Under the pieces are notes generated by a model that saw only the letters and a list, made by a program, of their open reading frames with translations, made no database searches and had not been told where the DNA came from. From IMG/VR virus record IMGVR_UViG_3300036766_002274, positions 1-54,402 of that record: a stretch of DNA of 54,402 bases; one strand, 5' to 3'. The position numbers and the translations under genes are program-made. This document shows, piece after piece, positions 17,366 to 51,220 of the stretch; positions within the stretch are counted from its first letter, which is position 1, and the number at the start of each line of letters is the position of its first letter. This stretch comes from a virus.

Positions 17366-20300
17366 TTAACGTGTCTTGCTGGAGGAGTAGTCGAACAGTG
17401 GCTCAGAAGCCATCTGCAACTTGTTGTACTTGTTCTCGTAGTAGGCCATCGTTCCCTTGACAGGAGCCTTGTTGTAGAACTTTTGCAGGCTGCTGTCCAT
17501 GGCTGGGTTGTCGAGGCGCAGAAGCGTACGTTGCCCACTGAGCAGTTTCTGGAATGCCTTCATAGCCGGGTCACTAGAGAGTGAGTCCAGCATGTTTTGC
17601 ACAGGAATCCCGCGCTGCTGTGCCGCGTCCCGCACTGCTGTCTCGAACTCGCTGTATGTATTGAATCCATCGAAGACGCCAAGTCCCTTTACGTACTCAA
17701 AGGCAGTATCTGCCGCATCGTAGTAGGGCTTCGTCGCAGCCTTGGCTGCGTCGTAGTCCCTGCCGAACTGGGTGTCCTTGGGCTTGTCAAACGAGGCAAG
17801 GCGCTCGTCAAGGTACTTCGCGTACTCGGGTGCCGTCTTTGCTTTAAACGCGGTCTGGAGCGCGTCGAGCTTGTTGAAGTCCAGCTTGCCATCCTTGCCC
17901 GTGGCTTGGTCGAACAGCGCGTACCAGTCGTTGACAACCTTGTCCTCGGGCTTCATGTAGCGGCCAAGGTAGTCGAGCACGGTCTCATCAGTGCCCTTGC
18001 GCTGGGCGGCGAGCTTGCCGAGGTCTGTCTGGGCGTCGGTGATTTCCTGACGCCGCTGCCCCGCAAGGAACTGGTACTCAGCCTTCGCATCGAAGGCGCT
18101 CGTCTTGCCAGACTTGTAGCGCGTGTCCAAGTCCTGCATCTTTGTGGTGTAGCCCTTGTTGATGCCGTCGAGCCGGTTGAAGTAGGACTGCACCGGGCTG
18201 TCCTGCCCGGTGGCATTGTCTGCCAGCGTCTTCTTCAGTTCGGCGTAGCGTGTGTTCTTGTCGAGTGCGCCACGGATACCTGTCTGCTCACCAGAGTTCA
18301 GGTCGTTGTAGTCAACGACGCCGTCCTTGTTACCGTTGACGTTGGCCCGGTCTTGCAGGCCGGGGAACTGCTTGCTCACTTCTTCAGCTTTGATGCGCGT
18401 CATCTCGCGCCCAAGCGTCTCAGGGTTGTGGTTCAGGCCAACGAAGTTGCTGAACAGGCCAGCCGCACGCTCGCGTGGATTGCTGTAGTTCGGGTCTTCC
18501 TTGAGCCCCACGTTGTCAGTGAGTGGCTTGATAAACTTACCGATAGCCGTGTGGTTCTGGATGACGCCAGTATTGAACGCAGCCTTGGCCGTGAGGGGAA
18601 GCGGCGGCTGGAAGAGCCCGTTGTTGAAGCCGGTACTGTTGCCCGGTGCGCCGATGCCTGCATCGCTGAGGTGTGACTGAAGGCCGTTACCAATCTCTGT
18701 GGCGAGAGGGCGCGTGGCCGCTCCGATGACATCAGGTGTACGCGAGGAGTACCAGTCAGCCAGCCCCACCATCGGCACCCAGTCTTGCATGCGCCACTTG
18801 CGGACACCGTCAGGACTGTCGGTACGCATGAGCGCCTTCACAAGGCCAATGACAGGATTGGACGCAGAGAGCGTCCCGGTTGCCCCGCCCTGTGCCTTGA
18901 GGAAGTTCTGGCTCTTCGGGTTGAGGATGCTGTCCTCATCCATCGGGTTCATGCTGGGCATCGAACCGGTAGCGAGGTACTGCATGGCAGCCATGCCAGC
19001 ACCCATCAAGACTGCTGTCTTCACGAGGTAGTAGCGCGCCATCGCGCCCTCTGGGCCGAAGTCCGTGCTGGCCTTCTTGGCGAGGATGAACGTGTTCCTG
19101 AGCAACGCCGGTGAGCGCGCCCCGATGGTACGCTCCCACTGGGACTGCTGCGCGCTGATGCCGTAAAGCTGCCGGTTGAGTGTCCCAGAGGTGCGGTTAA
19201 TCTGCTTCGCCGCCTGCACGCTGGACTTGATATTCTCAGCCTTACTGAGCTTCTCACCCGCGTAGCGCGCCTCCGCTTTAAATGCAGCGCGCGTGCCGAC
19301 GTTCGTCGCCAGCCCCAGAGCCAGAGCGAACCCGGCCTCGTACTGGTCATCAACGCCGGGGATGTCTACGCCTGATGCTGCGATACCAGCGCCTGCGAGG
19401 AGTGGCCCGTTCTTGAGGAACTCAGCAGCAAGCCGCCCGCCGACTGGGAACTTACCCTTGGCTGGGCCAAAGCCCTTGATAAAGTTCTCCGTCTGGCGCT
19501 GCAAGTCCCACTGGAGCGCGCGGTGGATAGGCAGGTATGCCTCGAAGCCGTGCTGCTCAATCTGCTTGACACCGGGCATGTTGGAGAGTGAGAGCTTCCC
19601 CTCCTTCTCAATGCCTTCGTGCTCAAGACCGCCAATGCCGCCAGCCTTGGTGTATGCATTCCAGAGGTCTTGGTTCTTCGATACCCAGTGGTCGAAGTAG
19701 CGCTTGCCACCGAAGGACGCGCCGACGAGCGGGATAAAGTTACGCACCGCACCCATGGGGTCGTTGATTGCCAGCATGGCACCCTGCATCGTCCAAGCGC
19801 TGAGGTCACCGGTGAACATCGCCTGCCGCAGGATGTTCGTGATGCCGTCAGCCACAGCCAGTGGGCCAGTCTCATTCCCACGGGTGGGGATGAGCAGGCT
19901 ATCCACTGCCTTGACCATCTCGGGGTGAAAGAGGTGGTCATCGATACCGGGGAGCTGACGCCAGCCCCGCTGCTCCATGCCCTTCTGTTTCACCTTCAGG
20001 TCGAGCCTGTCCTGCTTGCTGAGCGCCTGACGCTCAGCATCACTGGGAATCTTCCACGCCCCGCCTGACTCCTTCAGGTTCTGCACCAGCATCGCGTTAG
20101 CGCGAATCTGGTCGTGCCGCTTCACTTCGAGCCTGAGCAGGGCCATCGGGTCTTTGATGATGTCGAGGCCGGGCTGTGCCCGCAGCGCCGACTCATAAGT
20201 CGGGCCGAGGTCACGGAGCATCTGTGGTGAGCGCAGCCGGTCGAAGCCCGGTGTCTGCATCCTGAACGCCTTTGCAGCGTCTTCGCCAAAGACGCGCCGC

Positions 20301-23300
20301 ACGCTGTCCTCGGTGAAGAACTGCAAGATGCCGTGCTGCTCAAGGAATGGGATGGTATCGGAACCAGATGCCTGCAACGCCGCATTAGTCTGGCGCACCA
20401 TCTCATTGTGCGCGGACTGGTACGCCTCGACAGCCGTGGACTGAGCAGCGCTCAGGTCGTAGCGCTCAGGGTTCTGGAGGATGTCGTAGAGCTTCCCCGG
20501 CCCAGAGCGAAGCTGCTCAGGGAGTCGCCGGTCATCAGCGAGGCCGTGGTAGCGGATGTTTTCCCAAGGGCGGTTGGCCCACTTCGCCTTGGCTTGGAAG
20601 CCGGATGTCGCGCCCAGTGCGCCAGCCCCAGCGATGATGCCAAGCTCCTTCAGCCTGTCGTCCCCGGTGAGTTCGCCGCCTACCCAGCCAGCGGCAACTG
20701 GCGTGGCACCGGCGGCAATCTGCTTGGCTGCATTCTGGAGATGGTTCTCTTTGCCCACGATTGGCGCGAGTTCATCGAGCAACTTACTCGCACGAATCGA
20801 CTGCGTACCCGCCGCCGAGCGCAAGTAGTCGGCGGACGCCATGGTGGCGGCGGCTACCTTCTTCGCCATGAAGGTGACCTTGTTCGAGCTGGGGTCGATG
20901 ATGCTGTTCACGGCATGGATGACCGGGGCGAGGCCCGGCACTTGCTGGAGCAACTGGTTCATGTAGTGCGGGTCTTCCATCGCGGACTCAGCGTGCGCGA
21001 GGTAGTCGCTGCTCTGGGCCTTAACGGCAGTCACCTGTTCCGGTGTCGCCATAGCCTCGACCTTGCGAGCGCTGACGGCAGCCATGCGCTTGTCGTTGAC
21101 CTTCTTCATGCGGTCAGCGGCTTCGGCCTTCGTGTCCTTTACAGGCTCCAGCATGGCCGAGAGCTTCTCAGCGCTCTGCTGGCTCTCTTTAAACGCATCA
21201 GCCAGCCCCGCTTCGCGGCTGGCCTGCGGCGGCTCGATACCGAACGCCTTACCTAGCTCAGCATCGCTACTGGCCGGGTCAGCGATGTACTTGCCTGTAG
21301 CGGCAACCTTGCCAGAGACGTGCTCCAGCAGGCGTGCGCCTGCGCCTGACCGGAGGCCAGAGGCAAGACCGTACTCAGCCGCCTGCTTGAGCTTGTCGCT
21401 CTGGTCGCCATCTGCCGTGGCATACCCATAGACAGCAGCGCCACCGGCCTGCAAAGCAGCCCGTGTCGCTGGGTCTTGTAGCTGCGAACCAGTGCCCTCT
21501 GTTAGCCCCGCAGCAACAGGTGTGGTGCCGCCAGTCCTTGCATCTCTTAAGCCGACTAGATAGTCATCAAACCCAGTGCTTGCACCCGGCGGAATCTCCA
21601 CAAGCGTTACCTTGCGGCCGGTGGCGTCGGTAAAGACGTTCTTCGTAATCTTGCTCGACGTAGACCCCATATGCAGGTAGGGCACCGCAGTCCCAGATGG
21701 AACATCTTGGCCGTTGCTGATAGTGCGGAGCAGCTTATCGCGCAGCTCGCGCGGCAAAGCACTGAGCAGCACTTGCCGGTGGCGCGAGGTATCTAGGAGC
21801 GCAGACACGCTGTATCCCGATACCTGTGGCTCTGGGATTAGCCCTGTGGCTGGCCCCCGCTGTCGCATCCGCGCTTCGGTGTACCTGAGGTCATCCCTTG
21901 CATTCGCAAGTGCCTCACGTAGCGCGCGAGTCTTCGGCCCCGAGTTCTGGGCATCTTCCCAGTCTATATCGAAGCCAAGCTCTTTTGCGGTGGAACTTTC
22001 AGGATAGCTGACTGCCTCTTGCAGTTTTCTAATCCTGTCTTGCAGGAACTGCCAATTCACATCTAGCTGGTCGATGCCGGAGGCTGCTTGCCCTTGGGGG
22101 ATTGATGTTCCCTCCACTCGTGGTGGCAAGTCTGGCGAACGACCAAACGCAACCTCGTCTGGGCTTACATCCCAGCCATTGTTGGTGGGTGCGTCGTGCC
22201 CCAATCCTCGTCCGGGGTTGTCAACCCCGATGCTTCCGCCCTCAGCCATTCGTTGTCCAGTGAGGTCTGGCGCTGGGTCACCCAGTCCTGTCCGTGCTCC
22301 GCCACCAACTCCTGTATCATGTGGGCTTTCTCTAGTGAGCTGCTTAGCTGCGTCCCAGTCGGTTGTGTATTTTCCGGGGTGTTCATATGGTGCAAAGGTT
22401 CCTATTCGCTCATGCAGTGTAGCGGGGTCGCCGCCTTCGTAACGCATGAAGATAATATCAGGTCGGCCATCGGCGGTGTAGTCCCAGCCAGCCGGGGCAT
22501 ACTCATCAGCGAACTTCATCGCCTCGGTTGGCTTGAAGCCGAACTTCGCGTACAGCTTTGGCAGAAAGTTGCCGTCGCCAGCGTAGGCATCGAGCGTCTT
22601 CCCGCCATTCTCAATCGCGTGCAGGAAAGCAGCCTGCCCAGCCTTGGGCGGGCCACCGTTATTGAACAAGTTCTGGATGTCACCTTCTGGCGACAGCATG
22701 TAGCCGGTCTTGCCGTCCGGTGACAGGAACGCCTTCGAGGCAGCGAACTCCTCGGCAGAGTGGGGCGAAAGGTTCCACGCACGCGAGTTCGCGGACTTTG
22801 CCGCCTCGAACACCTTCGGGTCTGTAACCGGGTGGAACTCTACGCTGGGGATGCCACGCTCTGCCGCGCCTCGCTCAGGTAGGTTCTCCACCATGCCAAG
22901 CCGTGCGCCGACTGCGCCTGTTGCGTCCTTGGCGAACCGGCCAACGCCGGTTGCCGCCGCCGCCGTCGCTGCCGCCCTGAGAGCTTCCTCATTATCGTGT
23001 CCGGTTGCGCGGGCTGCCGCATAAGTAGCAGAGCCAGCGAGTCCGGCCTGAACCACTGCGCGCCCACCGGGGACTTTTGCAGCAGCGTCACCGGCAGTGC
23101 GAAGCCCTTCGCTGAACCTCCCCACGCCAGCGCCAAGCGCTGGCTGCACAAGAGATGCAGCACCGGCAAACTTCGCCGTTTCGATGGCGGACTTTAAAGC
23201 CTCGTCGTGGCTTGCGCCTGAGACCCTCGCGCTCGTGTACGAGATGGCAACAGCAGAACCAGCATTGAGCGCAACTGTTTCAACCATCTTCGCGAACGGC

Positions 23301-24664
23301 TTGATGGCCTCACCCAGTGCAGCGCGTACAACAGGGCTGGCTGCGTCCATCCCGAGGCGCTCAGCAACCGGAAGTGTAAGTCGCATGACGCCATTGCCTA
23401 GTGCTTCTCCGGGGAGGAACAGCGCGGCAACGCCGATGCCAGTGTTGACTGCGTACCGCGCGGCCTCGCCTGCGCTCTGGAAGTGCGCAGCGTTGCCAGA
23501 CTCAGAGTCGAGCTTGTTGGCTGCGGCAGTGGCCGCGTCCCGCTGGTCATGGTTGAACCTGCCGACCGTGGCGGCTTGCAGCCGAAGCGGAATAGCAGCG
23601 GCGGCGGCGGCAGTGGACTCAACCGGCTGGGCAATGCCCTCAGCCAAACCGCCGAGCATGTTGCCAACCGCACCGGGGACTGCGCCACGCGCCATGTCAC
23701 CCAGCTTGTCCGAGAAGAACCCGCTCTGGTTCTGGCCGACAGCGGCACGCACTGCCTTCTCCTGATGGAAGAAGGCGTTCTTGTCTTCATACGTGGCATC
23801 TGCGGCTGGAGCCTGAAGGCCGCGCGCCTGCGCGATAAGCGCCTTCGTCGCTGGCGTCTGGATGGACTCGTGCCACTGCATTGGCCCCGTCGTGCCGATA
23901 CCCAGCGTCTCGTTGTCGAGGCTGGAGATACGTGGGTCAGCAGCGAACACACTGAGCGGGTCAGTGTCGAGCTTCTTCAGCACTGCGCGCCAGTCCGAGA
24001 ACTCCTGCCCACGGCCCGTGAGGTGCGCGAGTTCGCGGGCATAGCCCTGCTTCACGTCATCCGGCGTGCCACGCACTTGCGTCTTCAATAGCTGGATTGG
24101 GTCATAGCGCGCCGAAGCATCTCGCCGTACGCTGTCGGTCAAGCTCTGGCCGACAGCGTCAAAGTCCCACCCATCCTTGTTGGCCGCAACACGCATCGCC
24201 GCATTCACCGGTCGCAACAGCCGGTTCGAGCCCCCCGTCTTGAGGCCCTCGGCGCTCTGTGAGTAGCGCAGTACGCCAGCCTGACCACGGCTCTTTATTG
24301 AGGAGTTGCCAAAGTTTTGCCCCTCGGCATCATCGATGTACTTCTTGCGCTCATCAGCGCTGCGCTGCTCGTCAACAAGAACGCGGCTGCGTTGTGTGGC
24401 GGCGCGGTCATCTTCACGGCGAGTGAAGTCAGCACGCTGGTTGTCAGCCTGAGCCTGAGCGCGCTGGCGCTGGTCTTCCTCTTCACGCCTGCGCCGCTCT
24501 TCTTCATCGAGCTGGCGCTGGCGAGCCGCCGCCTCGTACTGGTCGAGACTGTTCCGTGTCCAGTCTTGGCTGCTATCTGCGGGCGCGGCGAAGAGCCCCG
24601 AGCCGGGGTTCACACGGTTGATGCGCGAGTCAACAATGTCACCGAGGTCGTCAAGCACTGCCAT
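17366..24664 (-). CDS. Giant internal-virion/ejection protein, 2432 aa
   Basis: 2432 aa from ATG 24664 (TAATG overlap with the previous stop). Residues about 30-95 are an Arg/Glu/Gln-rich coiled coil. About 605-745 contain a compact domain with GYMLSPEGDIQNLFNNGG, GGKTLDAYAGDGNFLPKLYA and KFGFKP, close in style to GNAT-like or effector domains in large phage polyvalent proteins. Long helical stretches with Ala/Gly-rich hydrophobic segments follow, for example YYLVKTAVLMGAGMAAMQYL near 1880. The order (portal, 662-aa helical protein, this protein) matches podovirus internal core proteins that enter the host with DNA. An enzymatic role for 605-745 is inferred, not shown. Confidence 0.8.
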   Translation of the reverse strand: MAVLDDLGDIVDSRINRVNPGSGLFAAPADSSQDWTRNSLDQYEAAARQRQLDEEERRRREEEDQRQRAQAQADNQRADFTRREDDRAATQRSRVLVDEQRSADERKKYIDDAEGQNFGNSSIKSRGQAGVLRYSQSAEGLKTGGSNRLLRPVNAAMRVAANKDGWDFDAVGQSLTDSVRRDASARYDPIQLLKTQVRGTPDDVKQGYARELAHLTGRGQEFSDWRAVLKKLDTDPLSVFAADPRISSLDNETLGIGTTGPMQWHESIQTPATKALIAQARGLQAPAADATYEDKNAFFHQEKAVRAAVGQNQSGFFSDKLGDMARGAVPGAVGNMLGGLAEGIAQPVESTAAAAAAIPLRLQAATVGRFNHDQRDAATAAANKLDSESGNAAHFQSAGEAARYAVNTGIGVAALFLPGEALGNGVMRLTLPVAERLGMDAASPVVRAALGEAIKPFAKMVETVALNAGSAVAISYTSARVSGASHDEALKSAIETAKFAGAASLVQPALGAGVGRFSEGLRTAGDAAAKVPGGRAVVQAGLAGSATYAAARATGHDNEEALRAAATAAAATGVGRFAKDATGAVGARLGMVENLPERGAAERGIPSVEFHPVTDPKVFEAAKSANSRAWNLSPHSAEEFAASKAFLSPDGKTGYMLSPEGDIQNLFNNGGPPKAGQAAFLHAIENGGKTLDAYAGDGNFLPKLYAKFGFKPTEAMKFADEYAPAGWDYTADGRPDIIFMRYEGGDPATLHERIGTFAPYEHPGKYTTDWDAAKQLTRESPHDTGVGGGARTGLGDPAPDLTGQRMAEGGSIGVDNPGRGLGHDAPTNNGWDVSPDEVAFGRSPDLPPRVEGTSIPQGQAASGIDQLDVNWQFLQDRIRKLQEAVSYPESSTAKELGFDIDWEDAQNSGPKTRALREALANARDDLRYTEARMRQRGPATGLIPEPQVSGYSVSALLDTSRHRQVLLSALPRELRDKLLRTISNGQDVPSGTAVPYLHMGSTSSKITKNVFTDATGRKVTLVEIPPGASTGFDDYLVGLRDARTGGTTPVAAGLTEGTGSQLQDPATRAALQAGGAAVYGYATADGDQSDKLKQAAEYGLASGLRSGAGARLLEHVSGKVAATGKYIADPASSDAELGKAFGIEPPQASREAGLADAFKESQQSAEKLSAMLEPVKDTKAEAADRMKKVNDKRMAAVSARKVEAMATPEQVTAVKAQSSDYLAHAESAMEDPHYMNQLLQQVPGLAPVIHAVNSIIDPSSNKVTFMAKKVAAATMASADYLRSAAGTQSIRASKLLDELAPIVGKENHLQNAAKQIAAGATPVAAGWVGGELTGDDRLKELGIIAGAGALGATSGFQAKAKWANRPWENIRYHGLADDRRLPEQLRSGPGKLYDILQNPERYDLSAAQSTAVEAYQSAHNEMVRQTNAALQASGSDTIPFLEQHGILQFFTEDSVRRVFGEDAAKAFRMQTPGFDRLRSPQMLRDLGPTYESALRAQPGLDIIKDPMALLRLEVKRHDQIRANAMLVQNLKESGGAWKIPSDAERQALSKQDRLDLKVKQKGMEQRGWRQLPGIDDHLFHPEMVKAVDSLLIPTRGNETGPLAVADGITNILRQAMFTGDLSAWTMQGAMLAINDPMGAVRNFIPLVGASFGGKRYFDHWVSKNQDLWNAYTKAGGIGGLEHEGIEKEGKLSLSNMPGVKQIEQHGFEAYLPIHRALQWDLQRQTENFIKGFGPAKGKFPVGGRLAAEFLKNGPLLAGAGIAASGVDIPGVDDQYEAGFALALGLATNVGTRAAFKAEARYAGEKLSKAENIKSSVQAAKQINRTSGTLNRQLYGISAQQSQWERTIGARSPALLRNTFILAKKASTDFGPEGAMARYYLVKTAVLMGAGMAAMQYLATGSMPSMNPMDEDSILNPKSQNFLKAQGGATGTLSASNPVIGLVKALMRTDSPDGVRKWRMQDWVPMVGLADWYSSRTPDVIGAATRPLATEIGNGLQSHLSDAGIGAPGNSTGFNNGLFQPPLPLTAKAAFNTGVIQNHTAIGKFIKPLTDNVGLKEDPNYSNPRERAAGLFSNFVGLNHNPETLGREMTRIKAEEVSKQFPGLQDRANVNGNKDGVVDYNDLNSGEQTGIRGALDKNTRYAELKKTLADNATGQDSPVQSYFNRLDGINKGYTTKMQDLDTRYKSGKTSAFDAKAEYQFLAGQRRQEITDAQTDLGKLAAQRKGTDETVLDYLGRYMKPEDKVVNDWYALFDQATGKDGKLDFNKLDALQTAFKAKTAPEYAKYLDERLASFDKPKDTQFGRDYDAAKAATKPYYDAADTAFEYVKGLGVFDGFNTYSEFETAVRDAAQQRGIPVQNMLDSLSSDPAMKAFQKLLSGQRTLLRLDNPAMDSSLQKFYNKAPVKGTMAYYENKYNKLQMASEPLFDYSSSKTR

Positions 24665-26652
24665 TAGGCAGCAGCCGAGCGCTGTGCGCCCTTCAGGAAC
24701 TCGGTCGGCTTCTGGAGCCAGTCCACATAGTCGGCCCACGGGATGCCGTTGTTGCCTTCAACAAAGCCACGATACAGCTCAGTCTCACCCTTGGTCTGGT
24801 TCCTCAGCGTCTGGAGTGATGCCGCCACACCGCCGCCTTTTTGCTGAAGCCCGCTGCCCATGTTGAGCGTCGGCGCGATGTCGCCGGTGGCGTTGGCTGC
24901 GAGCGACGGAGGGATAGGCGCACCATAGTCAATAAGGTTCTGGAGCCGCGTCGGCATCTCACCAGAGATGTGCTGATTCGTGGAGCTGGGCATGTAGTCA
25001 CTGCCCATGCCGTTTGCCTCGTAGTCACCCTGAGTGCCGAGCGCAAAGCGGTGGTACGCCTGCGGGAACTGCATGAGCGGGCGGGGCTGCATGACCTGAC
25101 CCTGAGCGTTACCCTGCCACTTCCATGGCTCAGCACGGAGCACGCTGGGGTCAACGCGATGGCCCCAGTCGGCCATCCGCTGCATCTGGTAGCGGCTGTC
25201 GCCCTGTGCCCAGTTGCGGCCAGCCGCTTGGTCGAGACGCTGGTTGTACATGTACGGCTGGTTTAAAGGCCGCGCCTCTTGGTTCACGGGGCGTTGCGGC
25301 ATCTGGAACATCGGCTGTGCGCCACCCCCTATGGGGGTGTTGTCAGGGTGGGGCGTGATAGCCAGCGGGGCATTGGTCGGATTAAAGATACCCTCAGGCT
25401 TCGCCCCGCCAGCACTCGGGTCGGGAGCGTTGGCGTCGCCAGCCATGATGTTCGTGGCGGTCGTGAAGCCGCCCGCAGCCATGCGGTTCTGGGTCGGGTC
25501 ACTGAGCGCTGCGTTGGTTGGCGTCCAGCCTTTGCTTGCCGGGACTTGCGGCGGAAGCGCGTTCCAGCTATTGCCGCCACCAGACATGTCGAAGTTCCGC
25601 ATGTCATCACCGATGGGAATCTGTGCCTGCTGCGGCACGGGAGGCGGAGGCGCGATGCTGCTCTGGCCGGGGTTGAATGTGGCGACAGAAGGCGGTGCGA
25701 ACGCCGGTGCCTGAGCCGGAGCCGAGAGCGGAGCCTGCGCGGGAGCCGGGCTGCCCGAGGACTGAGTGCCGAATACCGGCGCTGCCGTGGTAGGGTCATA
25801 CGCGTGCAAAACGCTGGTTGCCGAGAGCGGCGTCATCGAAGCGGGCGTGCCGCCCTTTGCCATCGTATCCCAGTCAGGCGTGATGCCGCGCTGCATGAAG
25901 TACAAAGAGAAAAGGTCACGCGGTGACCTTGCCTGTTCAGCGATGAACTTGTTGTTGTCGAGTGCGAGCTGCCCCATGCCGACAGCGCGGCTTGTCTCCG
26001 CGCTGAACTGCCCGGTCTGGTTAGACTGCTCACCAAGCAGCCGCTTGGTTGCGTCGTCCATGCGGGCGATGACAGCCTGCTCTTGGTTCCAGCGCTCAGT
26101 GACCCGGTTGCGCTCAGCGTCGTTGGCCGCGCCTGCCATGCCCACCTTGTAGTTGTTGTCCGAAGCGTAGCGTGACGCAGCAGCAGCCTCCGCAGATGCC
26201 TGCGCCTGAGCCTGCCGGTCAGCCGACTGAGAAGCGAGCTGGTCACGCCGGTAGGCGTCGTTGGCGGTATCACGCGTGGCGTTGTACGCGTCAGTGTGTG
26301 TGTCCCGCCCAGCTTGGTAGTCGAAATTGCGCTGGTCTTGTGCAATCTTCGCAGCATCGTTCGTAGTGTTACGCGCGTCATTCGCCGCATTCCTGTCCAT
26401 GTTGTACTGGTCAGTAGGCGAGACATCGAAGAAGTGGTCTGGGCCAGCATTGGAAGGCTGGCGTACACCGGGAGCAAGCCCAGCCGCGATAAGAGCCGCT
26501 TGGTGTGCTTGGTCAAGCGTTAGACCCGGATACTGAAGCATCAACATCCGGTCGGCTGTGGTCATATCGCCTGACGCAGTTGTAGGCATAACATTCGGCA
26601 CATACTCCGTGCCGTTCCAGTGCGTATTCGGGGGCTGGTCGTTGTAGGCCAT
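24664..26652 (-). CDS. Putative internal virion protein, helical and Gln/Pro-rich
   Basis: 662 aa. Residues about 75-240 are a long polar helix rich in Asn, Asp, Ala, Gln and Arg (NDARNTTNDAAKIAQDQRNF, AYNATRDTANDAYRRDQLAS). The second half is Pro/Gly/Gln-rich and probably flexible (PAQAPLSAPAQAPAFAPPS). It has no enzyme motif or membrane segment. Low-complexity helical proteins at this position in podoviruses form part of the ejected core or portal-associated structure. Its stop overlaps the giant protein's ATG, so the two are probably made in fixed ratio. Confidence 0.65.
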   Translation of the reverse strand: MAYNDQPPNTHWNGTEYVPNVMPTTASGDMTTADRMLMLQYPGLTLDQAHQAALIAAGLAPGVRQPSNAGPDHFFDVSPTDQYNMDRNAANDARNTTNDAAKIAQDQRNFDYQAGRDTHTDAYNATRDTANDAYRRDQLASQSADRQAQAQASAEAAAASRYASDNNYKVGMAGAANDAERNRVTERWNQEQAVIARMDDATKRLLGEQSNQTGQFSAETSRAVGMGQLALDNNKFIAEQARSPRDLFSLYFMQRGITPDWDTMAKGGTPASMTPLSATSVLHAYDPTTAAPVFGTQSSGSPAPAQAPLSAPAQAPAFAPPSVATFNPGQSSIAPPPPVPQQAQIPIGDDMRNFDMSGGGNSWNALPPQVPASKGWTPTNAALSDPTQNRMAAGGFTTATNIMAGDANAPDPSAGGAKPEGIFNPTNAPLAITPHPDNTPIGGGAQPMFQMPQRPVNQEARPLNQPYMYNQRLDQAAGRNWAQGDSRYQMQRMADWGHRVDPSVLRAEPWKWQGNAQGQVMQPRPLMQFPQAYHRFALGTQGDYEANGMGSDYMPSSTNQHISGEMPTRLQNLIDYGAPIPPSLAANATGDIAPTLNMGSGLQQKGGGVAASLQTLRNQTKGETELYRGFVEGNNGIPWADYVDWLQKPTEFLKGAQRSAAA

Positions 26653-37318: not shown

Positions 37319-37478
37319 CGTGCTTCTCCGCTTCGCTATCAAGAACGGCCTTAGTCCATGCAAACGGTGCAGCGTCGTTTACGGCGACGCTGACGATTGC
37401 GGCCCGTTCACTTGCGGTAACTGTCTGCGTGGCAGCAAGGCCCGCGACCGTGCCAATTTCACGGGAGGAACACTGTGA
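37311..37478 (+). CDS. Small zinc-ribbon protein
   Basis: 55 aa from ATG 37311. CKRC (near 17) and CGNC (near 35) with the spacing of a zinc ribbon, followed by a basic tail (LRGSKARDRANF). Its stop overlaps the GTG of the 240-aa gene (GTGA). GTG 36892 to here is one chain of overlapping metal-binding genes. Possible nucleic-acid binding. Confidence 0.62.
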   Translation: MHDVLLRFAIKNGLSPCKRCSVVYGDADDCGPFTCGNCLRGSKARDRANFTGGTL

Positions 37479-38197
37479 GCGACCCGATTCTAGGCATCAC
37501 CGAACGATGGGACACGGACGCGTTGATTGAGATATCCCATACCATCCTCGCCCCTGCCCAGTGCCCCGCACTGCCCAGCCCGTTGCGTATCCGCACCGGT
37601 GCTGTACCCGGCACAAAGGGCACGAGCCAGAAGGTGCTGGGCTACTACGTTGCGCCTGACAAGGCAGAGGACAAGGTGCCCAGCTTCTACATCTCGCCGC
37701 TTGTCGGCGACACGGTAGGCGCGCTCACTATCATGACGTGGCTTGCTACGTTTGCCGCCTACCCCGACGACGATTGGAAGAAACGCAGCAACCGGAGTCA
37801 CCTTGCCGAACGTCTCGGTTTTGCCGCTCCCTATAGCACGCCGGTGGCAGGCTCGAACTTGCGCGTGCTCCTCGATGAGGTTGCGCTCTCGCTCGTGAAA
37901 GAGCGCCCACACTCGTGCATCGACGTGTCTAAGAATCCCATTATCCGCACACAGGCCACGAGCCTGTTGACCGGCGAGTGCCAGCTTTGCCATGGCAAGC
38001 ACAGGCCCACGCTCGCCACACTGGCATCGGGCTGGCCCGAGTGCAGCGGCAACGGTGGACACCGCCGCGTGCTCATTAACTGCTGGTCTGGCACACGCAC
38101 GGCTGGCCTCACGCCAGTCTCGCCGCTTGGCTTGAACATTCCTTGCCGCCCGTACGCCACCGGTTCCGGTGGCGTGCCCATCTTTGAGCCCATCTAA
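37475..38197 (+). CDS. Hypothetical protein, 240 aa
   Basis: Begins at GTG 37475. The N-terminal 26 residues are duplicated in the 34-aa gene at 36791. The middle is mixed alpha/beta (VLGYYVAPDKAEDKVPSFYI, ALTIMTWLATFAAYPDD). A CQLC pair (near 166) with later Cys may bind metal. It directly precedes the AAA+/VWA pair, with an AGGAG before that start, so it may be part of their system. No family is recognised. Confidence 0.7.
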   Translation: MSDPILGITERWDTDALIEISHTILAPAQCPALPSPLRIRTGAVPGTKGTSQKVLGYYVAPDKAEDKVPSFYISPLVGDTVGALTIMTWLATFAAYPDDDWKKRSNRSHLAERLGFAAPYSTPVAGSNLRVLLDEVALSLVKERPHSCIDVSKNPIIRTQATSLLTGECQLCHGKHRPTLATLASGWPECSGNGGHRRVLINCWSGTRTAGLTPVSPLGLNIPCRPYATGSGGVPIFEPI

Positions 38198-38219: not shown

Positions 38220-39365
38220 ATGCACCCGACCATTAACCCCGACATCTTAGACAAGAGCGAACTTATCGAGCACCTTGTGCGCTTGACCGGCAAGTCTGGC
38301 GCATTCTTTGAAGCGGACAGCGTGCGCACACTGCGCGTGATGCTCGTCACCGCCATCGAAGCAAACCCTGACGGCGGAGTGGCGCGCAACCCTACCGCAG
38401 TAGGCGGTGGTGCGACGCTCACGCCCGAGGACATCGAGCGCCTCATCGAACAGGCTGCGACACGCGCTGAGCAGCGCGTTGTTCAGCGTATCCGGCAGGC
38501 CAGCATCAGCACCACCGAAGGTGCTGCACCAGCCAGCGATGGCGAGCCCGCCATCTCCGTCTCGTTCGGCGCTGACTCGCAGGGTATTCACGTCCCTGCC
38601 ATTCTCGCGGAATATCGCAACCCGTTTAAAGCGTTCTGCTCACGCATCGAAGCCGAGTCACGCGACACTGGCGTGCCCATCCACATCGGGCTCGTCGGCC
38701 CAACCGGCTCAGGCAAGACGACGTTCGCGGTGCAGTTCGCAGCCCAGACCAACCGACCCTGCTACATCCTGAACGTAGGCGCAGTGAGTGAGGCAGAGCA
38801 GCTTCTCTACACGTGGGAAGCGAAGGACGGCACGACATACCAGACACCGAGCGAACTCTCGCGTGCCATCCAAGTGGAGAACGCCGTCATCGTCTTGGAT
38901 GAACTCACACGTGGCGCCAACGCCAAGGTCACGAACGGCATCCTCGACATGCTCGACCACCGCGCGGTGCTTGGCAACGTGCCTGTCGCACCGGGCGTCG
39001 TGTTCTTCGCGACACTCAACGAGGGCGTCGGCTACACCGGCACCGACCTCATCGATGAGGCACTAGAGAACAGGCTCGCCTATTTCCTGCACATCCCGTA
39101 CTCCACCGAAGAAGAAGAGATTCTCATCGAGAAGTACGGCTGTGACCCGGTGCTCGCCAAGCACCTCGTCCTCCTCGCCCGCAACCTGCGCGGCGAGTAC
39201 GACCGCATCTCACTCCGCACACTGGGCGCGGCAGTGCGTCAAGTGAAGTACGGTGCGAGCATCGGCGAAGCGCTGTTCTGCACCTTCGCTCGCATCGTAC
39301 CGCCTGACGTGCTGGTATCGGCGGCAGCGTCAACCATTCCCAACATCACGTTCCCGAACTACTAA
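38220..39365 (+). CDS. MoxR/CobS-like AAA+ ATPase
   Basis: 381 aa from ATG 38220 with AGGAGA upstream. Residues 1-130 are a variable helical region. The AAA+ core follows: Walker A GPTGSGKTTF (near 158), Walker B NAVIVLDELTRGANAK (near 220-235), sensor 1 FFATLNEG (near 262), and an Arg-rich ALENRLAYF stretch. MoxR/CobS/NorQ ATPases work as ring chaperones that insert metals or remodel proteins together with a VWA partner, and that partner is the next gene. Cobalamin synthesis itself is unlikely because no other cob gene is visible. Confidence 0.87.
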   Translation: MHPTINPDILDKSELIEHLVRLTGKSGAFFEADSVRTLRVMLVTAIEANPDGGVARNPTAVGGGATLTPEDIERLIEQAATRAEQRVVQRIRQASISTTEGAAPASDGEPAISVSFGADSQGIHVPAILAEYRNPFKAFCSRIEAESRDTGVPIHIGLVGPTGSGKTTFAVQFAAQTNRPCYILNVGAVSEAEQLLYTWEAKDGTTYQTPSELSRAIQVENAVIVLDELTRGANAKVTNGILDMLDHRAVLGNVPVAPGVVFFATLNEGVGYTGTDLIDEALENRLAYFLHIPYSTEEEEILIEKYGCDPVLAKHLVLLARNLRGEYDRISLRTLGAAVRQVKYGASIGEALFCTFARIVPPDVLVSAAASTIPNITFPNY

Positions 39366-39388
39366 CCCCGGAAGGGTGGAGGTCAGTC

Positions 39389-41404
39389 ATGACTAGCTTC
39401 ACAGAAGGCACGTTCAACTACACAGTGCAGCGACCCAGTGTGCCGGGTCTGTCCCGGTTTGCTGGCCGTGCGCTTGACACGGCGGAAGCGATGAAACTTC
39501 AACGCAACTTCGGGCTTCTCGCCAAGGGTCTGAACAAAAAGACCGTCACGCTTTGGGGGGTCGGCTCGATTGGGACAGACCACTCGTATCAGGATAAGCA
39601 CGGTAGGCACATCATCGTCGCTGACCCGCGCCGCCTGTCCCAGCCCGACCGTAACAGTGCGCCGCAGACCGGCCTGCCGAGACTCACTAACGCCAACGTG
39701 GCGAGTGTGACCGGCGCGGTTATCCACGAGGTAGCGCACACGCTCTACACTCCGAAGCTCGCACGCCTGTCAGGCAAAGAACTCGCAGTGTTCCGTGTCT
39801 ACGAGGATGCGTACATCAACGCTCTTATCCTCAACGAGCGCCTGCCCGGTGCCACGCCACTCATCCAGTACGCGTTCAATTGGAGCAACCCGCGACCGCA
39901 ACTGCTCCGTTCCATGGAGCAGGCAGTCACAGCGTGGGAAGAGCAGCCGACGTTTAAAGCTGCCATCGCAGTGCTTGGCAGCGCGGACTTCGTCGCTCGC
40001 CTGCTGAACGTCAACGCCAGCGTCAAGGTGCCGAACACCAGCCTTGTCGCGCTGCTCAACAAGGTGCAGCCCATCAGTGACACGCTCAGCGCAGGCGTTG
40101 TCATCGAGTGGGACGACCGGCTCAAGCTGTACCGCAAGATTGCCAAGGCAATCGACGCCTGCATCTCGCCGGATGCAGCGACCGAGCCGAGCCAGCCCGA
40201 GCCCAAGTCTGACAGCAACCTTCCGCAACCAGCCCAGCCTGACCCCTCAGGTGAGGACGACGGCGACGACACCGGCGACGACGACACACAGGACGAGGGC
40301 CAGCCATCACCCGAGTACGGTGACCCTGACCCCGACCAAGACGATAGCGACTGGGATGACGACGGCAACGCCGCACCCGGCGAAGAAGAAGAAGAGGACG
40401 AGGAGGGCACAGAAGAACACAGCCAGTACACAGCCAGTACGCAGCGGGGTAACCAGCCACCCCAACCAGACCAGACGCCAGAGCCTGAGGATGCTGGCGA
40501 TGACCTCACTGACACCTACGGCGACGATGCCGCCGACGTGCTCCTCACGTGTGAGGACACGACGCCCGAGCGGGGGCAGACCGGCGCCGCACTGAGCGAT
40601 GCACTGGCCCGCGCCAATCATGCCACTGTCGCCACCGAAGAGGACGGCGTGGTGCTTGGCGATGGCCTCTACGAGAAGGCCCAGCCGGGGCAGTACACGG
40701 TGAAGGGCATCGACCAGAAGCGCATCGACTCTCTCGCTAAGGTCTTCAAGGCGAAGAGCAACGTCCGCCGCGCGGTTGTGCATGGCTTGGACGAGGGCCG
40801 CATCAGCGGTCGCCGCCTTGGCAGGCTCGTCTCGGGTACCAGCAAGAACGTCTTCAAAGCACGGCCCAACTTCCGGCAGGAAAGCGCCGCTGTCCTCTTG
40901 CTCGTAGACGGCTCAGGCTCCATGGCCGGTGCCAACTACGACGGGGCCGCGCTCGCAGCCTATGAACTGTTTGCCAGCCTCAACGGCAACAACGATTACG
41001 CGGTCTACGCGTGGGTTTATACCGGCAGCACGACCCTCAACATCGTGGGCGCATCGCTCGATGGCAAAGTCCTGTCATGGCCCCGTGGCGGTGGCGGGTC
41101 AACGCCATCACACGAAGCCATGGTCGAAGCTGCCGCCTTTCTCAAGAAGCGGCACGGCGACGCTACGCGCCTCATCGTCCACTTCACCGACCTAGGCTAC
41201 ACCGACCGGCCCACGCCAGAGTTCAACGCCCTCGACCGGGAGCGCGGCCTTGCTTACATCTCCGTAAGCGTGGTCGAGAACCCGGACAACTTCGTCTATG
41301 CACTCGCTCAATCGCAGCGAGTGTCGCCACTCATGAAGGTCAGTGGCTACACCAGCACGCACCTCGTTCAGGCCGTGCAGGAACTGGTAGCCCGAACCTT
41401 CTAA
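39389..41404 (+). CDS. CobT-like VWA protein with N-terminal HExxH motif
   Basis: 671 aa; GGAGG lies before the ATG. Residues about 105-135 contain IHEVAHTLYT (an HExxH metal site) followed by RVYEDAYIN, the Glu expected of a gluzincin-like motif. Residues about 285-360 are nearly all Asp/Glu/Gly/Pro/Gln and should be disordered. The C-terminal 170 residues are a VWA domain with MIDAS DGSGSMAG (near 505-512), GGSTPSHEAM and HFTDLGYTD. This is the usual partner of a MoxR/CobS ATPase. The two genes are 23 nt apart and surely form a pair. Target protein unknown. Confidence 0.85.
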   Translation: MTSFTEGTFNYTVQRPSVPGLSRFAGRALDTAEAMKLQRNFGLLAKGLNKKTVTLWGVGSIGTDHSYQDKHGRHIIVADPRRLSQPDRNSAPQTGLPRLTNANVASVTGAVIHEVAHTLYTPKLARLSGKELAVFRVYEDAYINALILNERLPGATPLIQYAFNWSNPRPQLLRSMEQAVTAWEEQPTFKAAIAVLGSADFVARLLNVNASVKVPNTSLVALLNKVQPISDTLSAGVVIEWDDRLKLYRKIAKAIDACISPDAATEPSQPEPKSDSNLPQPAQPDPSGEDDGDDTGDDDTQDEGQPSPEYGDPDPDQDDSDWDDDGNAAPGEEEEEDEEGTEEHSQYTASTQRGNQPPQPDQTPEPEDAGDDLTDTYGDDAADVLLTCEDTTPERGQTGAALSDALARANHATVATEEDGVVLGDGLYEKAQPGQYTVKGIDQKRIDSLAKVFKAKSNVRRAVVHGLDEGRISGRRLGRLVSGTSKNVFKARPNFRQESAAVLLLVDGSGSMAGANYDGAALAAYELFASLNGNNDYAVYAWVYTGSTTLNIVGASLDGKVLSWPRGGGGSTPSHEAMVEAAAFLKKRHGDATRLIVHFTDLGYTDRPTPEFNALDRERGLAYISVSVVENPDNFVYALAQSQRVSPLMKVSGYTSTHLVQAVQELVARTF

Positions 41405-41893: not shown

Positions 41894-42103
41894 ATGAAGC
41901 TGACATTTTCGCATCACGGTGCCACCATAGCAGTGCGACACACACCGGGCATTACCTGCACGCCTTATGGCCCACAAGGGGCAGACGTGGCCCTGCGTAA
42001 CTCACGCACTCGTCGCCTCATTGCATATAGCCACAATAGTTGGTGGCTAATCACGGGCACGAACTACGCTGTCGATAACCTCACCATCGAAGAGGGGCAC
42101 TGA
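41894..42103 (+). CDS. Small protein, paralogue of 42606-42815
   Basis: 69 aa. KLTFSHHGATIAVRHTPGI and RRLIAYSHNSWWLITGTNYAV align throughout with the 69-aa protein 500 nt downstream (about half the residues identical), so this is a tandem duplication with two genes in between. The fold is probably all beta. Function unknown. Confidence 0.65.
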   Translation: MKLTFSHHGATIAVRHTPGITCTPYGPQGADVALRNSRTRRLIAYSHNSWWLITGTNYAVDNLTIEEGH

Positions 42104-42447: not shown

Positions 42448-42609
42448 ATGGAAGGGCCAGAAGAGGCAGCGGAGCGCAAGCTCGCTGCTAAGCTGGCGGA
42501 AGCCAAGCTCTTTAAAGTGAGCCTCGACTTCAGTCAGACCGAAGAAGAGTACCGGGCATTCGTGCCACGGGACAACACCCAAGAGGGACAAGGGGAGCCA
42601 GAACCATGA
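42448..42609 (+). CDS. Small charged helical protein
   Basis: 53 aa from ATG 42448. EEAAERKLAAKLAEAKLFK is a strong helix. The tail is polar and acidic. Its F-K codons form a TTTAAA word (42511). It overlaps the next ATG as ATGA. Function unknown. Confidence 0.5.
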   Translation: MEGPEEAAERKLAAKLAEAKLFKVSLDFSQTEEEYRAFVPRDNTQEGQGEPEP

Positions 42610-42815
42610 AGCTTGTATTCTCACACGATGGCGTCATTGTTGCCACGCGACACGTACCGGGCATCTTCGTTACTTATGACAAGCTCGGCGATGTCGAGCT
42701 TCGTAATCTCAAGACGAAGCGATTAATCGCGCGCAACCACAACCAGTGGTGGTTCGTCATGGGAACGCGCTATTCTGTCAGCGACCTAGTGGTTGAGACT
42801 GAGGCGGGCAAGTGA
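42606..42815 (+). CDS. Small protein, paralogue of 41894-42103
   Basis: 69 aa. KLVFSHDGVIVATRHVPGI and KRLIARNHNQWWFVMGTRYSV match the upstream copy over the whole length. Both ends overlap neighbours (ATGA, GTGA). Divergence of the pair suggests separate functions or an arms-race origin. Function unknown. Confidence 0.65.
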   Translation: MKLVFSHDGVIVATRHVPGIFVTYDKLGDVELRNLKTKRLIARNHNQWWFVMGTRYSVSDLVVETEAGK

Positions 42816-48871: not shown

Positions 48872-49047
48872 CCGCCACTTCTAAGTGGGTGCAGTTCATC
48901 ATTGAGTACCCCGTCAATGCTGCCGATGCCGCCATCCTAGAGGTACTTGAAATTGCACGCAGCACGGGCTATGCCCGCGTTGTCAGTGTCGCTGCTCCGG
49001 TGGCATCGCCGGATGACGACAAAGAATGGACAATCGACGATGACTAG
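48868..49047 (+). CDS. Small hypothetical protein
   Basis: 59 aa from GTG 48868 (overlaps the upstream stop). SKWVQFIIEYPVNAADAAIL and ILEVLEIARSTGYARVVSV form an alpha/beta pattern. It ends acidic (DDDKEWTIDDD). Its stop lies 8 nt inside the RNA ligase gene. Function unknown. Confidence 0.55.
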   Translation: MTATSKWVQFIIEYPVNAADAAILEVLEIARSTGYARVVSVAAPVASPDDDKEWTIDDD

Positions 49048-49969
49048 TTGGCACAGTTACCCAAGCATCTTCAACTTCGGCCACAAGGCCGTACGCGACA
49101 TCTTCTCCAAGCCGGTCATCGTAGAGGAGAAGGTAGACGGCAGTCAGTTCAGCTTCGGCCTCATCAATGGCGAGCTTCGGCTCAAGTCCAAGAAGCAGGA
49201 GTTCACCGTCGATACGGCACCGACCCTGTTCAGGCTCGCTGCCCAGACCGTCAAGAAGCTCAGTGATGACCTCGTCCCCGAGTACACGTACCGTGGCGAA
49301 TACCTGTCCAAGCCGCAGCACAACACGCTGGCCTACGACCGTGTGCCGGGGCAGCACATCATCATCTTCGACATCAACGATGCCGAGGAGTCCTACCTCA
49401 CTGTCAACGAGAAGCGGTTCGAGGCACTCCGCCTCGGGCTTGAGTGCGTGCCGATGTTCCTCGCTGGCGACAGCGTCACCTACCAAGACATCCTTGGTTT
49501 CCTCGAAACCACGAGTGTTCTCGGTGGTCAGAAAGTAGAAGGCGTGGTCGTCAAGTCCCTCTCTCTCTATGGAGAGGACAAGAAGCTCCTTATCGCCAAG
49601 CACGTCAGTGAGGCGTTTAAAGAGATTCACGGCGGCGAGTGGCGCAAGAACAACCCTGCGAAAAGTGACATCATCGCCGGGCTTATCGCTCGCTACGGTG
49701 GCCCTGCTCGCTACGCCAAGGCAGTCCAGCACCTTCGTGACGAAGGCGTCCTCGAAGACAGCCCGCGTGACATCGGCAAGCTCATCCCAGAACTCAAGCA
49801 AGACTGGGCGAAGGAGTGCGAAGACGACGTGAAGGCCATTCTCTGGACGCACTTCCGAGACCAGATTGAACGCGGCGTTCTTGCCGGGTTCCCGACGTGG
49901 TACAAGTCCGAGCTGCTCAAGCAGCAGTTCGGTGAGCCAGAACTTGAAGAGGAGCTGATAGCAGCATGA
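49040..49969 (+). CDS. RNA ligase (Rnl2-like nucleotidyltransferase)
   Basis: 309 aa from ATG 49040. Motif I EEKVDGSQF places the AMP-accepting Lys near 31. Then RGEYL (near 95), IIIFDIND (motif IIIa, near 116), EGVVVKS (motif IV, near 167) and LLIAKHVSEAF (motif V, near 184) follow in order. The C-terminal 110 residues are helical. It would seal nicks in RNA with ATP. A polynucleotide kinase-phosphatase gene lies 390 nt further on, forming an RNA repair pair as in T4, and tRNAs are encoded nearby. Substrate preference (tRNA or mRNA) is not visible. Confidence 0.87.
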   Translation: MTSWHSYPSIFNFGHKAVRDIFSKPVIVEEKVDGSQFSFGLINGELRLKSKKQEFTVDTAPTLFRLAAQTVKKLSDDLVPEYTYRGEYLSKPQHNTLAYDRVPGQHIIIFDINDAEESYLTVNEKRFEALRLGLECVPMFLAGDSVTYQDILGFLETTSVLGGQKVEGVVVKSLSLYGEDKKLLIAKHVSEAFKEIHGGEWRKNNPAKSDIIAGLIARYGGPARYAKAVQHLRDEGVLEDSPRDIGKLIPELKQDWAKECEDDVKAILWTHFRDQIERGVLAGFPTWYKSELLKQQFGEPELEEELIAA

Positions 49970-50208
49970 CCGCACCATACGCAGTCCGTGACCTCCCGCT
50001 CCGTAAGCAGCGGGTCAACGACAGCCCGCAGGCATACGTGGCACCGACAGGTGTCGTCCTCTGCGACCAGTCCAACAAGGTCTGCCATCTCACACAGGCC
50101 GAGGCCACTATGGTCATCACGAAGCTGGGGCGACCCAGTCTTCGCGCCTACCAACACACCGCCCCGAAGGGGTGTGGCTACTGGCATATCGGGCACGTTA
50201 TCTCATGA
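49966..50208 (+). CDS. Small hypothetical protein between ligase and kinase
   Basis: 80 aa from ATG 49966. Polar with two Cys (VLCDQSNKVCHLTQAEA) and a GYWHIGHV end. It overlaps the next gene by 4 nt. Position inside the RNA repair row suggests a link, but nothing in the sequence shows a role. Confidence 0.6.
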   Translation: MTAPYAVRDLPLRKQRVNDSPQAYVAPTGVVLCDQSNKVCHLTQAEATMVITKLGRPSLRAYQHTAPKGCGYWHIGHVIS

Positions 50209-50363
50209 GCACAACACTCACGAGCTTCTGTGTCGGTATGTCGCTGGGCATGTCGCTGATTGGCCTTGGTGCCATCCTCACATCGCCAATCACCGGCATC
50301 ATCTGCATGCTTGGTGGCGTCTGCTGGGGCATCATCGCCGCCGACCTCGGAGGTGGAAAGTGA
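50205..50363 (+). CDS. Small two-helix membrane protein
   Basis: 52 aa from ATG 50205 (ATGA overlap). Hydrophobic helices FCVGMSLGMSLIGLGAILT and IICMLGGVCWGIIAA joined by SPITG. Overlaps the kinase GTG as GTGA. Third small membrane protein in this 2-kb row; function unknown. Confidence 0.6.
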   Translation: MSTTLTSFCVGMSLGMSLIGLGAILTSPITGIICMLGGVCWGIIAADLGGGK

Positions 50364-51220
50364 CCGCTCTCGACATCACCTACACGCGTGGTTTGCCGGG
50401 CTCCGGCAAGACCACGTGGGCACGGGAGTTCCTCAAGAACAACCCCGGTTACAAGCGCGTCAACAATGACGAGCTGCGCCTGCTGCTCGATGGCGAACAG
50501 TTCAACCCGAAGAACGAGGGCTTTGTTCGCATTGCCCGCAAGGCACTTATCGCCGTTGCCCTCGGTGACCGCAAGAACGTCCTCGTGGACAACTGCAACC
50601 TGTCCCCGAAGGCCGTCGCTGAGCTGGAGAACATCGCCGCTGCGCACGGTGCCACCACCACCGTCAAGGACTTCACTGACGTGCCGTTCAGTGAGTGCAT
50701 CAGGCGTGATGCCCTCCGGCAGTGCCCCGTTGGCCGCAAGGTCATCAAGCGCATGCGCGATGACTTCCTCCGTGACCAGAAGGTCGTGTATGAGCACGAC
50801 AACAGCCTGCCCAAGTGCATCCTCGTAGATATGGATGGCACGCTCGCTATCCATGGTACGCGTGGAGTCTACGACTTCGAGCACGCTGGCGAAGACGCTT
50901 TAAACGAAGCGGTCGCTTGGCAGGTAGCACTCTGCCACGAAGCTGGCATGAGCGTCATCATCGTTACCGCTCGCGAGGCGAAGTACCGAGAAGTCACACG
51001 CGACTGGCTCAATAAGCACGAGGTGCCCTACAACGCCATCCACATGCGTGGCACCTTCGATGACCGCGAGGACAGTATTGTCAAGCGCGAGCTGTACGAG
51101 AACCACATCGATGGCAAGTACAACGTGCAGGCTGTCTTCGATGACCGCAACCGCGTCGTCAACATGTGGCGCGACCAGCTCGGCCTGACAGTCTTCCAAG
51201 TCGCTGAAGGCGACTTCTAG
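50360..51220 (+). CDS. Polynucleotide kinase-phosphatase (T4 Pnkp-like)
   Basis: 286 aa from GTG 50360 with GGAGG upstream. The N-terminal kinase has P-loop GLPGSGKTTWA (residues 11-21) and a lid-type basic region. The C-terminal HAD phosphatase has DMDGTLA (near 157) and VTAREAKYREVTRDWL, then FDDRNRVV. Together they turn 2',3'-cyclic phosphate and 5'-OH ends into ends that RNA ligase can join, as in T4 repair of cleaved tRNA-Lys. The ligase is in the same operon. Domain order is the T4 order. Confidence 0.92.
   Translation: MTALDITYTRGLPGSGKTTWAREFLKNNPGYKRVNNDELRLLLDGEQFNPKNEGFVRIARKALIAVALGDRKNVLVDNCNLSPKAVAELENIAAAHGATTTVKDFTDVPFSECIRRDALRQCPVGRKVIKRMRDDFLRDQKVVYEHDNSLPKCILVDMDGTLAIHGTRGVYDFEHAGEDALNEAVAWQVALCHEAGMSVIIVTAREAKYREVTRDWLNKHEVPYNAIHMRGTFDDREDSIVKRELYENHIDGKYNVQAVFDDRNRVVNMWRDQLGLTVFQVAEGDF

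Follow-up and report, generated by a model that had tools for sequence, protein, structure and literature searches.

A divergent phage MoxR ATPase and VWA protein pair with a conserved metallopeptidase-like site

Introduction

The IMG/VR virus record IMGVR_UViG_3300036766_002274 was analysed over its whole length of 54,402 bases, referred to here as the window, for a gene pair that lies at 38-41 kb within its right-hand + strand region. The first gene encodes a MoxR-type AAA+ ATPase and the second a protein in which a metallopeptidase-like domain precedes a von Willebrand factor A (VWA) domain. In viruses, cobS/cobT pairs are commonly interpreted as auxiliary genes for vitamin B12. However, the viral members keep a metallopeptidase site that is absent from true CobT, and they sit with replication genes; the same site recurs in some members of a cellular family that is encoded mostly next to glycyl-radical enzymes. 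If the viral pair does cut protein, the annotation in many virome studies would be wrong, and live and dead peptidase versions of one machine could be compared. The pair is of a kind already described in viruses. Two points are new here: the split of the peptidase site into live and dead versions across three branches (viral, CobT and glycyl-radical-linked), and a gene for an SprT-like pseudo-peptidase upstream of the pair.

The gene pair and its motifs

The MoxR gene (38220..39365, +) encodes 381 residues and matches AAA_5 (2e-16) and PHROG 249 'porphyrin biosynthesis' (4.4e-21). Its frame could begin earlier, at the GTG at 38169, but the ATG at 38220 was taken as the start because AGGAGAG lies just upstream. 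The ATPase motifs are intact, with Walker A as GPTGSGKT (residues 160-167, 38697..38720, +) and Walker B as VIVLDE (residues 223-228, 38886..38903, +); Walker A from residue 160, LDE from residue 226, N267, R285 and R333 are invariant in 13/13 aligned sequences including the window. Good ribosome-binding sequences precede both genes, which are separated by 23 bases.

The VWA gene (39389..41404, +) encodes 671 residues, and its product matches PHROG 1576 (6.6e-11) and Pfam VWA (1.4e-4; 22.5 bits, just below the cut-off of 23.8). An N-terminal domain of predicted zincin-like fold (residues 1-262, 39389..40174, +) is followed by an acidic disordered linker (residues 263-425, 40175..40663, +; 32% D/E and 2% K/R) and by the C-terminal VWA domain (40664..41404, +). 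The latter has a complete metal ion-dependent adhesion site (MIDAS), formed by DGSGSM (residues 507-512, 40907..40924, +) and a second aspartate, D601 (41189-41191). The N-terminal domain carries the HExxH motif HEVAH (residues 113-117, 39725..39739, +) and, downstream, Glu-Asp 139-140 (39803..39808, +) with the candidate third zinc ligand.

The window protein was aligned with 12 phage relatives and a thirteenth encoded on a genomic island. Although identity is only 13-22%, H113, E114, H117, E139, D140 and I143 are invariant (14/14), as are D507, S509, S511, M512 and D601 of the MIDAS. These MIDAS residues are also invariant in 52/52 sequences when the window is set with 51 relatives, which were chosen for HExxH and ED, so that those two columns are invariant by selection. 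An HExxH arises in 1.2% of shuffles of the VWA protein, and the motif by itself is therefore modest evidence; it was judged real because it is conserved at such low identity, both in the 14 aligned proteins and in a wider viral sample. The latter was obtained by searching viral contigs with the MoxR alignment, which gave at least 80 loci (L numbers below); all viral locus counts given here are drawn from this sample. Among the matches listed, HExxH with the following ED is present in 54/59 viral VWA matches of at least 440 aa, window included, by a profile that was built on 14 founders (the window and the 13 relatives), all with HExxH, and that favours full-length members. The remaining five are one protein cut near a contig edge (L064) and four without the whole domain (L027, L052 and two in L059). 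Matches shorter than 440 aa were dropped from the viral and the cellular HExxH counts alike.

Predicted structure of the VWA protein

An AlphaFold2 model of residues 1-270, made with the 51 relatives, has a mean predicted local distance difference test score (pLDDT) of 69.5 and a predicted template modelling score (pTM) of 0.72. In a VIA-align search with this model, rows 1-19 are all zinc metallopeptidases (Z 6.0 to 3.8), and the first protein of another kind stands at row 20. Examples include ZMPSTE24 (Z 6.0, root-mean-square deviation (rmsd) 3.7, 138 residues aligned) and ArdC (Z 4.7, rmsd 4.2, 129 aligned), together with selecase, abylysin, a Zn-dependent peptidase, BlaR1 and LTA4H. Against viral models, the best matches are phage proteins annotated as VWA or CobT and as peptidases (best E 2.2e-3). 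A profile search of PDB with the N-domain gave no match, and one relative searched alone (L003) gave no match in Pfam or in PDB. From its motifs and its predicted fold, the N-domain is probably a gluzincin-like zinc peptidase.

The full-length model is poor (pTM 0.49), with pLDDT below 50 at residues 267-293 and 299-424, that is, over most of the linker. Its VWA part is predicted to have a Rea1/NorD-like fold, the best match being the MIDAS domain of Rea1/MDN1 (Z 14.9, rmsd 3.4, 198 aligned), and the NorD VWA domain also matches (Z 13.8, rmsd 5.2, 210 aligned). The genes, motifs and conservation thus bear out an earlier note on this DNA, made from its letters alone, which had read the locus as a MoxR ATPase with an HExxH-carrying VWA protein. 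Its metallopeptidase-like domain is likewise upheld, by HEVAH and the downstream Glu kept in viral relatives and by the structural matches, at low Z, and so is its disordered acidic linker.

Viral relatives and linkage of the pair

No close relative of the window pair was found. The VWA protein had no tblastn match in 50,697 phage records, where the MoxR protein had five matches only (28-36% identity); viral contigs searched with either protein singly yielded no close relatives, nor did genomes searched with the VWA protein, nor megablast with 24 kb of the window. More distant relatives are abundant. The homologue of Ochrobactrum phage vB_OspM_OC matches 463 phage records, nearly all of cyanophages and, among the matches listed, mostly annotated 'peptidase'; it has no match in the plasmid collection. 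Judged by motifs and alignments, the window pair belongs, as a highly divergent representative, to a kind already known and widespread in viruses, and the conservation among viruses argues that the 'peptidase' label is the closer one.

Linkage of the two genes is frequent. Among the viral matches listed, MoxR scores above 100 bits in 77 loci, and a VWA partner lies within the stretch in 62 of these, on the same strand in 60/62 and adjacent in 40/62; a contig end lies within about 3 kb in most of the 15 loci that have no partner. Adjacency is not obligatory, since the MoxR and VWA genes of Microcystis phage Mel-JY01 are about 13 kb apart. Genes in the loci were called by a simple caller, which in the window preferred a - strand shadow frame over the gene upstream of MoxR. 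Locus L059 (6935-12226) has two MoxR-VWA pairs in tandem, neither VWA protein having the peptidase domain, and in L057 (10777-12508) the metallopeptidase-VWA protein is broken into two frames.

Pairs of this kind have been reported under several names, as given in the available portions of the papers cited here. Group 2.2 jumbo phages likewise have MoxR adjoining a vWA protein with an N-terminal metallopeptidase (PMC7824862), from which the window differs in being a 54-kb record with an integrase, in its very divergent sequence and in the SprT-like pseudo-peptidase upstream. Pairs resembling cobST are common in tailed viruses (PMC8651126), AAA and vWA-MIDAS genes are neighbours in haloviruses (PMC7911831), and cobS is listed in the cyanophage core (PMC3037559). 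The cobS/'peptidase' pair of T4-like cyanophages (PHROG 249 / 459, 1576) resembles the window in having an AAA+ protein beside an HExxH-MIDAS protein, with HExxH and ED aligned at 14-18% identity. In the cyanophages, however, the pair is flanked by gp46 and gp45, neither of which was recognised in the window.

Presence and absence of the peptidase site in cellular members

When genomes were scanned with MoxR sequences from the window and from seven viral relatives, 66 loci came up, mainly from Desulfobacterales, Smithella, Geobacter relatives, Aromatoleum and Dehalococcoidia, in which the VWA gene usually follows MoxR. Nine neighbouring proteins were tested, and seven of them are glycyl-radical enzymes (PFL-like with Gly_radical), the others being a gyrase A and a transporter. 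The best cellular BLAST matches of both window proteins are in these pairs, which resemble BssE and BssF, AAA+ and von Willebrand proteins whose function is uncertain in the available text of PMC7285207. Unlike the window pair, they serve a glycyl-radical enzyme operon. Their N-domain is homologous to the viral one, as a profile comparison of viral and cellular HExxH domains (probability 90, E 1.7e-6) aligns the HExxH and ED of the two sets with each other. HExxH is present in 21/58 cellular VWA matches of at least 440 aa, or in 19/56 if L159 and L161, which are viral-like, are set aside. Cellular proteins that have the motif and those that lack it plainly form one family (E 1.5e-70). The earlier note had held that loss of the catalytic His or Glu in relatives would speak against it; viral relatives with the domain have not lost these residues, whereas some cellular relatives have.

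The presence of HExxH varies with the neighbouring enzyme. VWA partners with HExxH-GED (L101-L156) stand mainly beside glycyl-radical enzymes of about 833 aa, and the motif is mainly lost where the enzyme has 855 aa or more. Among 54 VWA proteins of at least 500 aa (shorter ones were dropped from this comparison), those with HExxH have an enzyme shorter than 855 aa in 10 cases and a longer one in one, and those without it a longer one in 17 and a shorter one in six; the other 20 have no glycyl-radical enzyme within 10 genes. Judging from the organisms concerned, the longer enzyme is probably benzylsuccinate synthase and the shorter probably alkylsuccinate-synthase-like.

CobS and CobT of the aerobic cobaltochelatase resemble the window pair in combining an AAA+ ring with a VWA partner that has an acidic linker. 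Unlike the window protein, none of the ten CobT proteins parsed has HExxH (0/10). One of the ten is from an Aromatoleum genome, and the other nine are from the class to which a Hyphomicrobiales genome belongs. They represent 10 of 13 loci, the remaining three being L168, L169 and L170; two further matches had no locus. The CobT N-domain is likely a dead relative of the viral one, because two HExxH members, L014 (26.6 bits) and L066 (26.1), reach the cut-off of the Pfam CobT N-domain PF06213 (26.1) over all or most of its length. A direct hhalign comparison of CobT with the viral N-domain is weak (probability 7, P 0.005), with ED aligned to EQ and PG to PG, and the same comparison with the glycyl-radical VWA set gave nothing. 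It is the Pfam scores of L014 and L066 that make a shared origin of the two N-domains likely. Among the titles and abstracts listed in literature searches, one of which was too broad to weigh much, none described CobT as a dead peptidase or HExxH in glycyl-radical-linked VWA proteins.

The SprT-like gene upstream

Directly upstream of MoxR lies a gene for a 240-aa protein (37475..38197, +). By tblastn it matches an unannotated protein of Bacteriophage 4A (6e-6), which is SprT-like at a level below the Pfam cut-off (E 2.7e-3) and carries HELIH. The Smith-Waterman score of the two is 138, against 33 +- 5 for shuffles, of which 0/1000 score as high, and hhalign of the 240-aa protein with three SprT-like phage proteins gives probability 97.7 and E 1.4e-12. 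HELIH aligns with WLATF, so that the HExxH is gone. As judged from these alignments, the 240-aa protein is a divergent SprT-like pseudo-peptidase. SprT-like proteins, SPRTN for example, act by cleaving DNA-protein crosslinks.

The part of the Bacteriophage 4A genome that was examined shows no MoxR-VWA pair. In two viral loci, L057 and L066, SprT-like genes with an intact HExxH lie directly upstream of MoxR. Nevertheless, an SprT-like gene as a general companion of the pair was rejected: among proteins of 100-350 aa, HExxH occurs in 7/197 near the pair and in 5/467 far from it, and those of L057 and L066 are the only near ones recognised as SprT-like.

Neighbouring genes in relatives

Replication and recombination genes are the commonest neighbour families of the pair in relatives. 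For example, the pair lies between gp46 and gp45 in S-PM2, P-HM2 and P-TIM40, and gp46/47 and gp45/44 surround it in T4-like cyanophages. In a genomic island of Salmonella, which appears to be an SXT/R391-like module, ssb, bet and an exonuclease-like gene are bordered on one side by a CobS-like AAA gene and on the other by an HExxH-VWA gene. A PHROG scan of 150 of the 190 near neighbours, from 53 loci, found sliding clamp (8), SbcC (4), clamp loader (4) and ribonucleotide reductase (3); the same scan of 150 of the 278 far genes found helicase (5), clamp loader (5) and DNA polymerase (3). As replication genes occur both near and far, the pair inhabits replication regions, and no one neighbour is singled out.

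Proposed role and alternatives

The two genes, their motifs, their conservation and their linkage can be read directly from the sequence; the mechanism we infer from homology. We lean, with a little better than even confidence, towards a machine that uses ATP to remodel proteins and has a zinc peptidase built into its adaptor. MoxR would form a hexameric ring, to which the VWA protein would dock via its VWA/MIDAS domain, and this domain would also recognise the client. ATP-driven movement, transmitted through the charged linker, may then present the client to the gluzincin-like N-terminal domain, which would cut it once or at few sites. The client might be a protein of the phage DNA replication or recombination complex, or a host protein that acts on such complexes. 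Rea1/MDN1 and NorD, the structural matches of the VWA part, are both VWA partners of MoxR-clade AAA+ rings, which was counted for this reading. Also counted for it were the motifs kept at 13-22% identity, the frequent linkage of the two genes, the zinc metallopeptidases at the head of the N-domain fold search, the profile homology to cellular HExxH domains and the replication and recombination genes around the relatives. Similarly, Rea1/midasin, NorQ-NorD and p618-p892 of the Acidianus two-tailed virus each join a MoxR-clade ATPase to a MIDAS partner that remodels a client. Neither Rea1 nor NorD is known to have a peptidase domain. The Acidianus pair is described as 'without the peptidase domain' in the available portion of PMC7824862. 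The earlier note had suggested protein remodelling or host takeover; remodelling fits the homology, but host takeover is without direct evidence.

Several observations weigh against this remodelling machine with a peptidase. Z values of 6 or less for the N-domain can reflect a common arrangement, and Foldseek of the N-domain against PDB gave no match at E <= 0.001. Four viral VWA partners without the peptidase domain still pair with MoxR, and cellular VWA relatives without HExxH exist; peptidase activity is therefore not required in every pair. The genomic context consists of whole early modules, whose more distant genes are also replication genes, and many of the sampled loci are from T4-like phages, which weigh heavily. 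In the window itself, neither a sliding clamp nor a recombinase was recognised among the genes scanned. A bolder form of the idea would make the pair an AAA+ protease built to a plan not recognised before, in which the peptidase belongs to the VWA adaptor and not to the ring, and which trims or strips proteins from phage DNA during replication and recombination. The SprT-like neighbour and, in relatives, SbcC/gp46, the sliding clamp and Bet-Exo-SSB would then be one theme, and CobT and BssF would derive from such a machine, with remodelling retained but the peptidase gone; we regard this as unlikely.

Other roles have to be weighed against the remodelling machine. A chaperone-protease for virion assembly or maturation, by analogy with the Acidianus virus, was proposed for this architecture in group 2.2 jumbo phages (PMC7824862, available portion), yet in the window the pair is on the + strand with early-type genes (Cas4-like exonuclease, RNA ligase, kinase and MazG-like) while terminase and endolysin are on the - strand. 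Replication genes prevail around the relatives, where head-maturation protease families match 2/150 near neighbours each. Phage structural proteins are often cut during maturation, which was counted in favour of this role; it nevertheless seems fairly unlikely. A further possibility is that the pair, in the manner of BssE/BssF or NorQ/NorD, activates a metal or redox enzyme, in which case the HExxH domain would bind metal without cutting protein. The closest cellular MoxR proteins (39% identity and 119 bits, where the best viral MoxR scores 87 bits) have VWA partners, many beside glycyl-radical enzymes as in the neighbours tested, and NorD is among the top matches of the VWA part. However, the window shows no glycyl-radical enzyme and no other candidate client, the glycyl radical domain PF01228 and CobN both being without a match in the record, which agrees with the earlier note that the usual client genes are absent. 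The MoxR tree (80 rows) groups the window with glycyl-radical-linked MoxR (SH-like approximate likelihood ratio test 92), but on a very long end branch (3.15), and it does not decide. In the approximately unbiased (AU) test, grouping the window with a second phage set (p 0.657), or with a first phage set of cyanophage-type MoxR together with CobS (p 0.543), was not rejected, the free search having missed better trees; no claim on the placement of MoxR is therefore made. An activase is quite unlikely on this balance.

The cobalamin and defence readings are weak. Viral CobS and CobT as auxiliary cobalamin genes would join host CobN to form the aerobic cobaltochelatase, a role proposed for archaeal and bacterial tailed viruses (PMC8651126, available portion). 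This is consistent with the PHROG 249 match of the window MoxR, with a profile match of the linker and VWA part of the viral family to solved CobT (E 1e-15) and with the N-domains of L014 and L066 at the Pfam CobT cut-off. Still, the VWA protein of the window does not clearly qualify as a CobT (CobT_C, PF11775, at 0.17 and 11.9 bits versus a cut-off of 21; no PF06213 match in the whole record), the viral members keep the HExxH that CobT lacks, the record has no CobN match, and the 25 neighbour families met most often, whether close to the pair or further away, include no cobalamin family. The window MoxR was not placed with CobS in the tree, though the AU test allows the group with CobS and cyanophage-type MoxR, and the cobalamin role is very unlikely. 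For a phage-borne conflict or superinfection-exclusion system, raised by the earlier note, there is the precedent of MoxR-vWA couples in ternary conflict systems (PMC7159879, available portion). No PADLOC family matches the VWA protein or the scanned neighbours (no search by name with VMAP or iSTAND profiles was made), and MoxR has weak matches only, in its P-loop region (E 6e-4 and above). No third component of those systems (VMAP, iSTAND, FtsH, beta-propeller) was recognised, the gene upstream being SprT-like. Moreover, since 463 records match the Ochrobactrum phage homologue, the pair spans whole phage groups, unlike patchy defence genes, and a conflict system appears highly improbable.

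Other features of the window

The window is probably a temperate phage. An integrase begins at its first base (1-1037 region) with a tRNA-Ala just downstream, and both ends of the record coincide with gene ends, as if software had excised a provirus; the record has no terminal repeat of at least 12 bases and no second copy of any tRNA-Ala segment of at least 14 bases. A scan for promoters and terminators found no excess. The left part has the terminase, the endolysin and most other large genes on the - strand, which also carries the DnaB-like helicase gene. A 2457-aa open frame (17366-24739, -) has a single weak PHROG match (phrog_2563, 8.5e-6). In the right part, the + strand carries small genes together with a Cas4-like exonuclease, an RNA ligase, a polynucleotide kinase and a MazG-like/deoxyribosyltransferase gene. 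Two small paralogous genes lie downstream of the pair (41894-42103 and 42606-42815; 54.5% identity over 66 residues), and a tRNA-Thr is found at 47649. The RNA ligase gene adjoins the polynucleotide kinase-like gene (48947-51220), a possible RNA repair pair.

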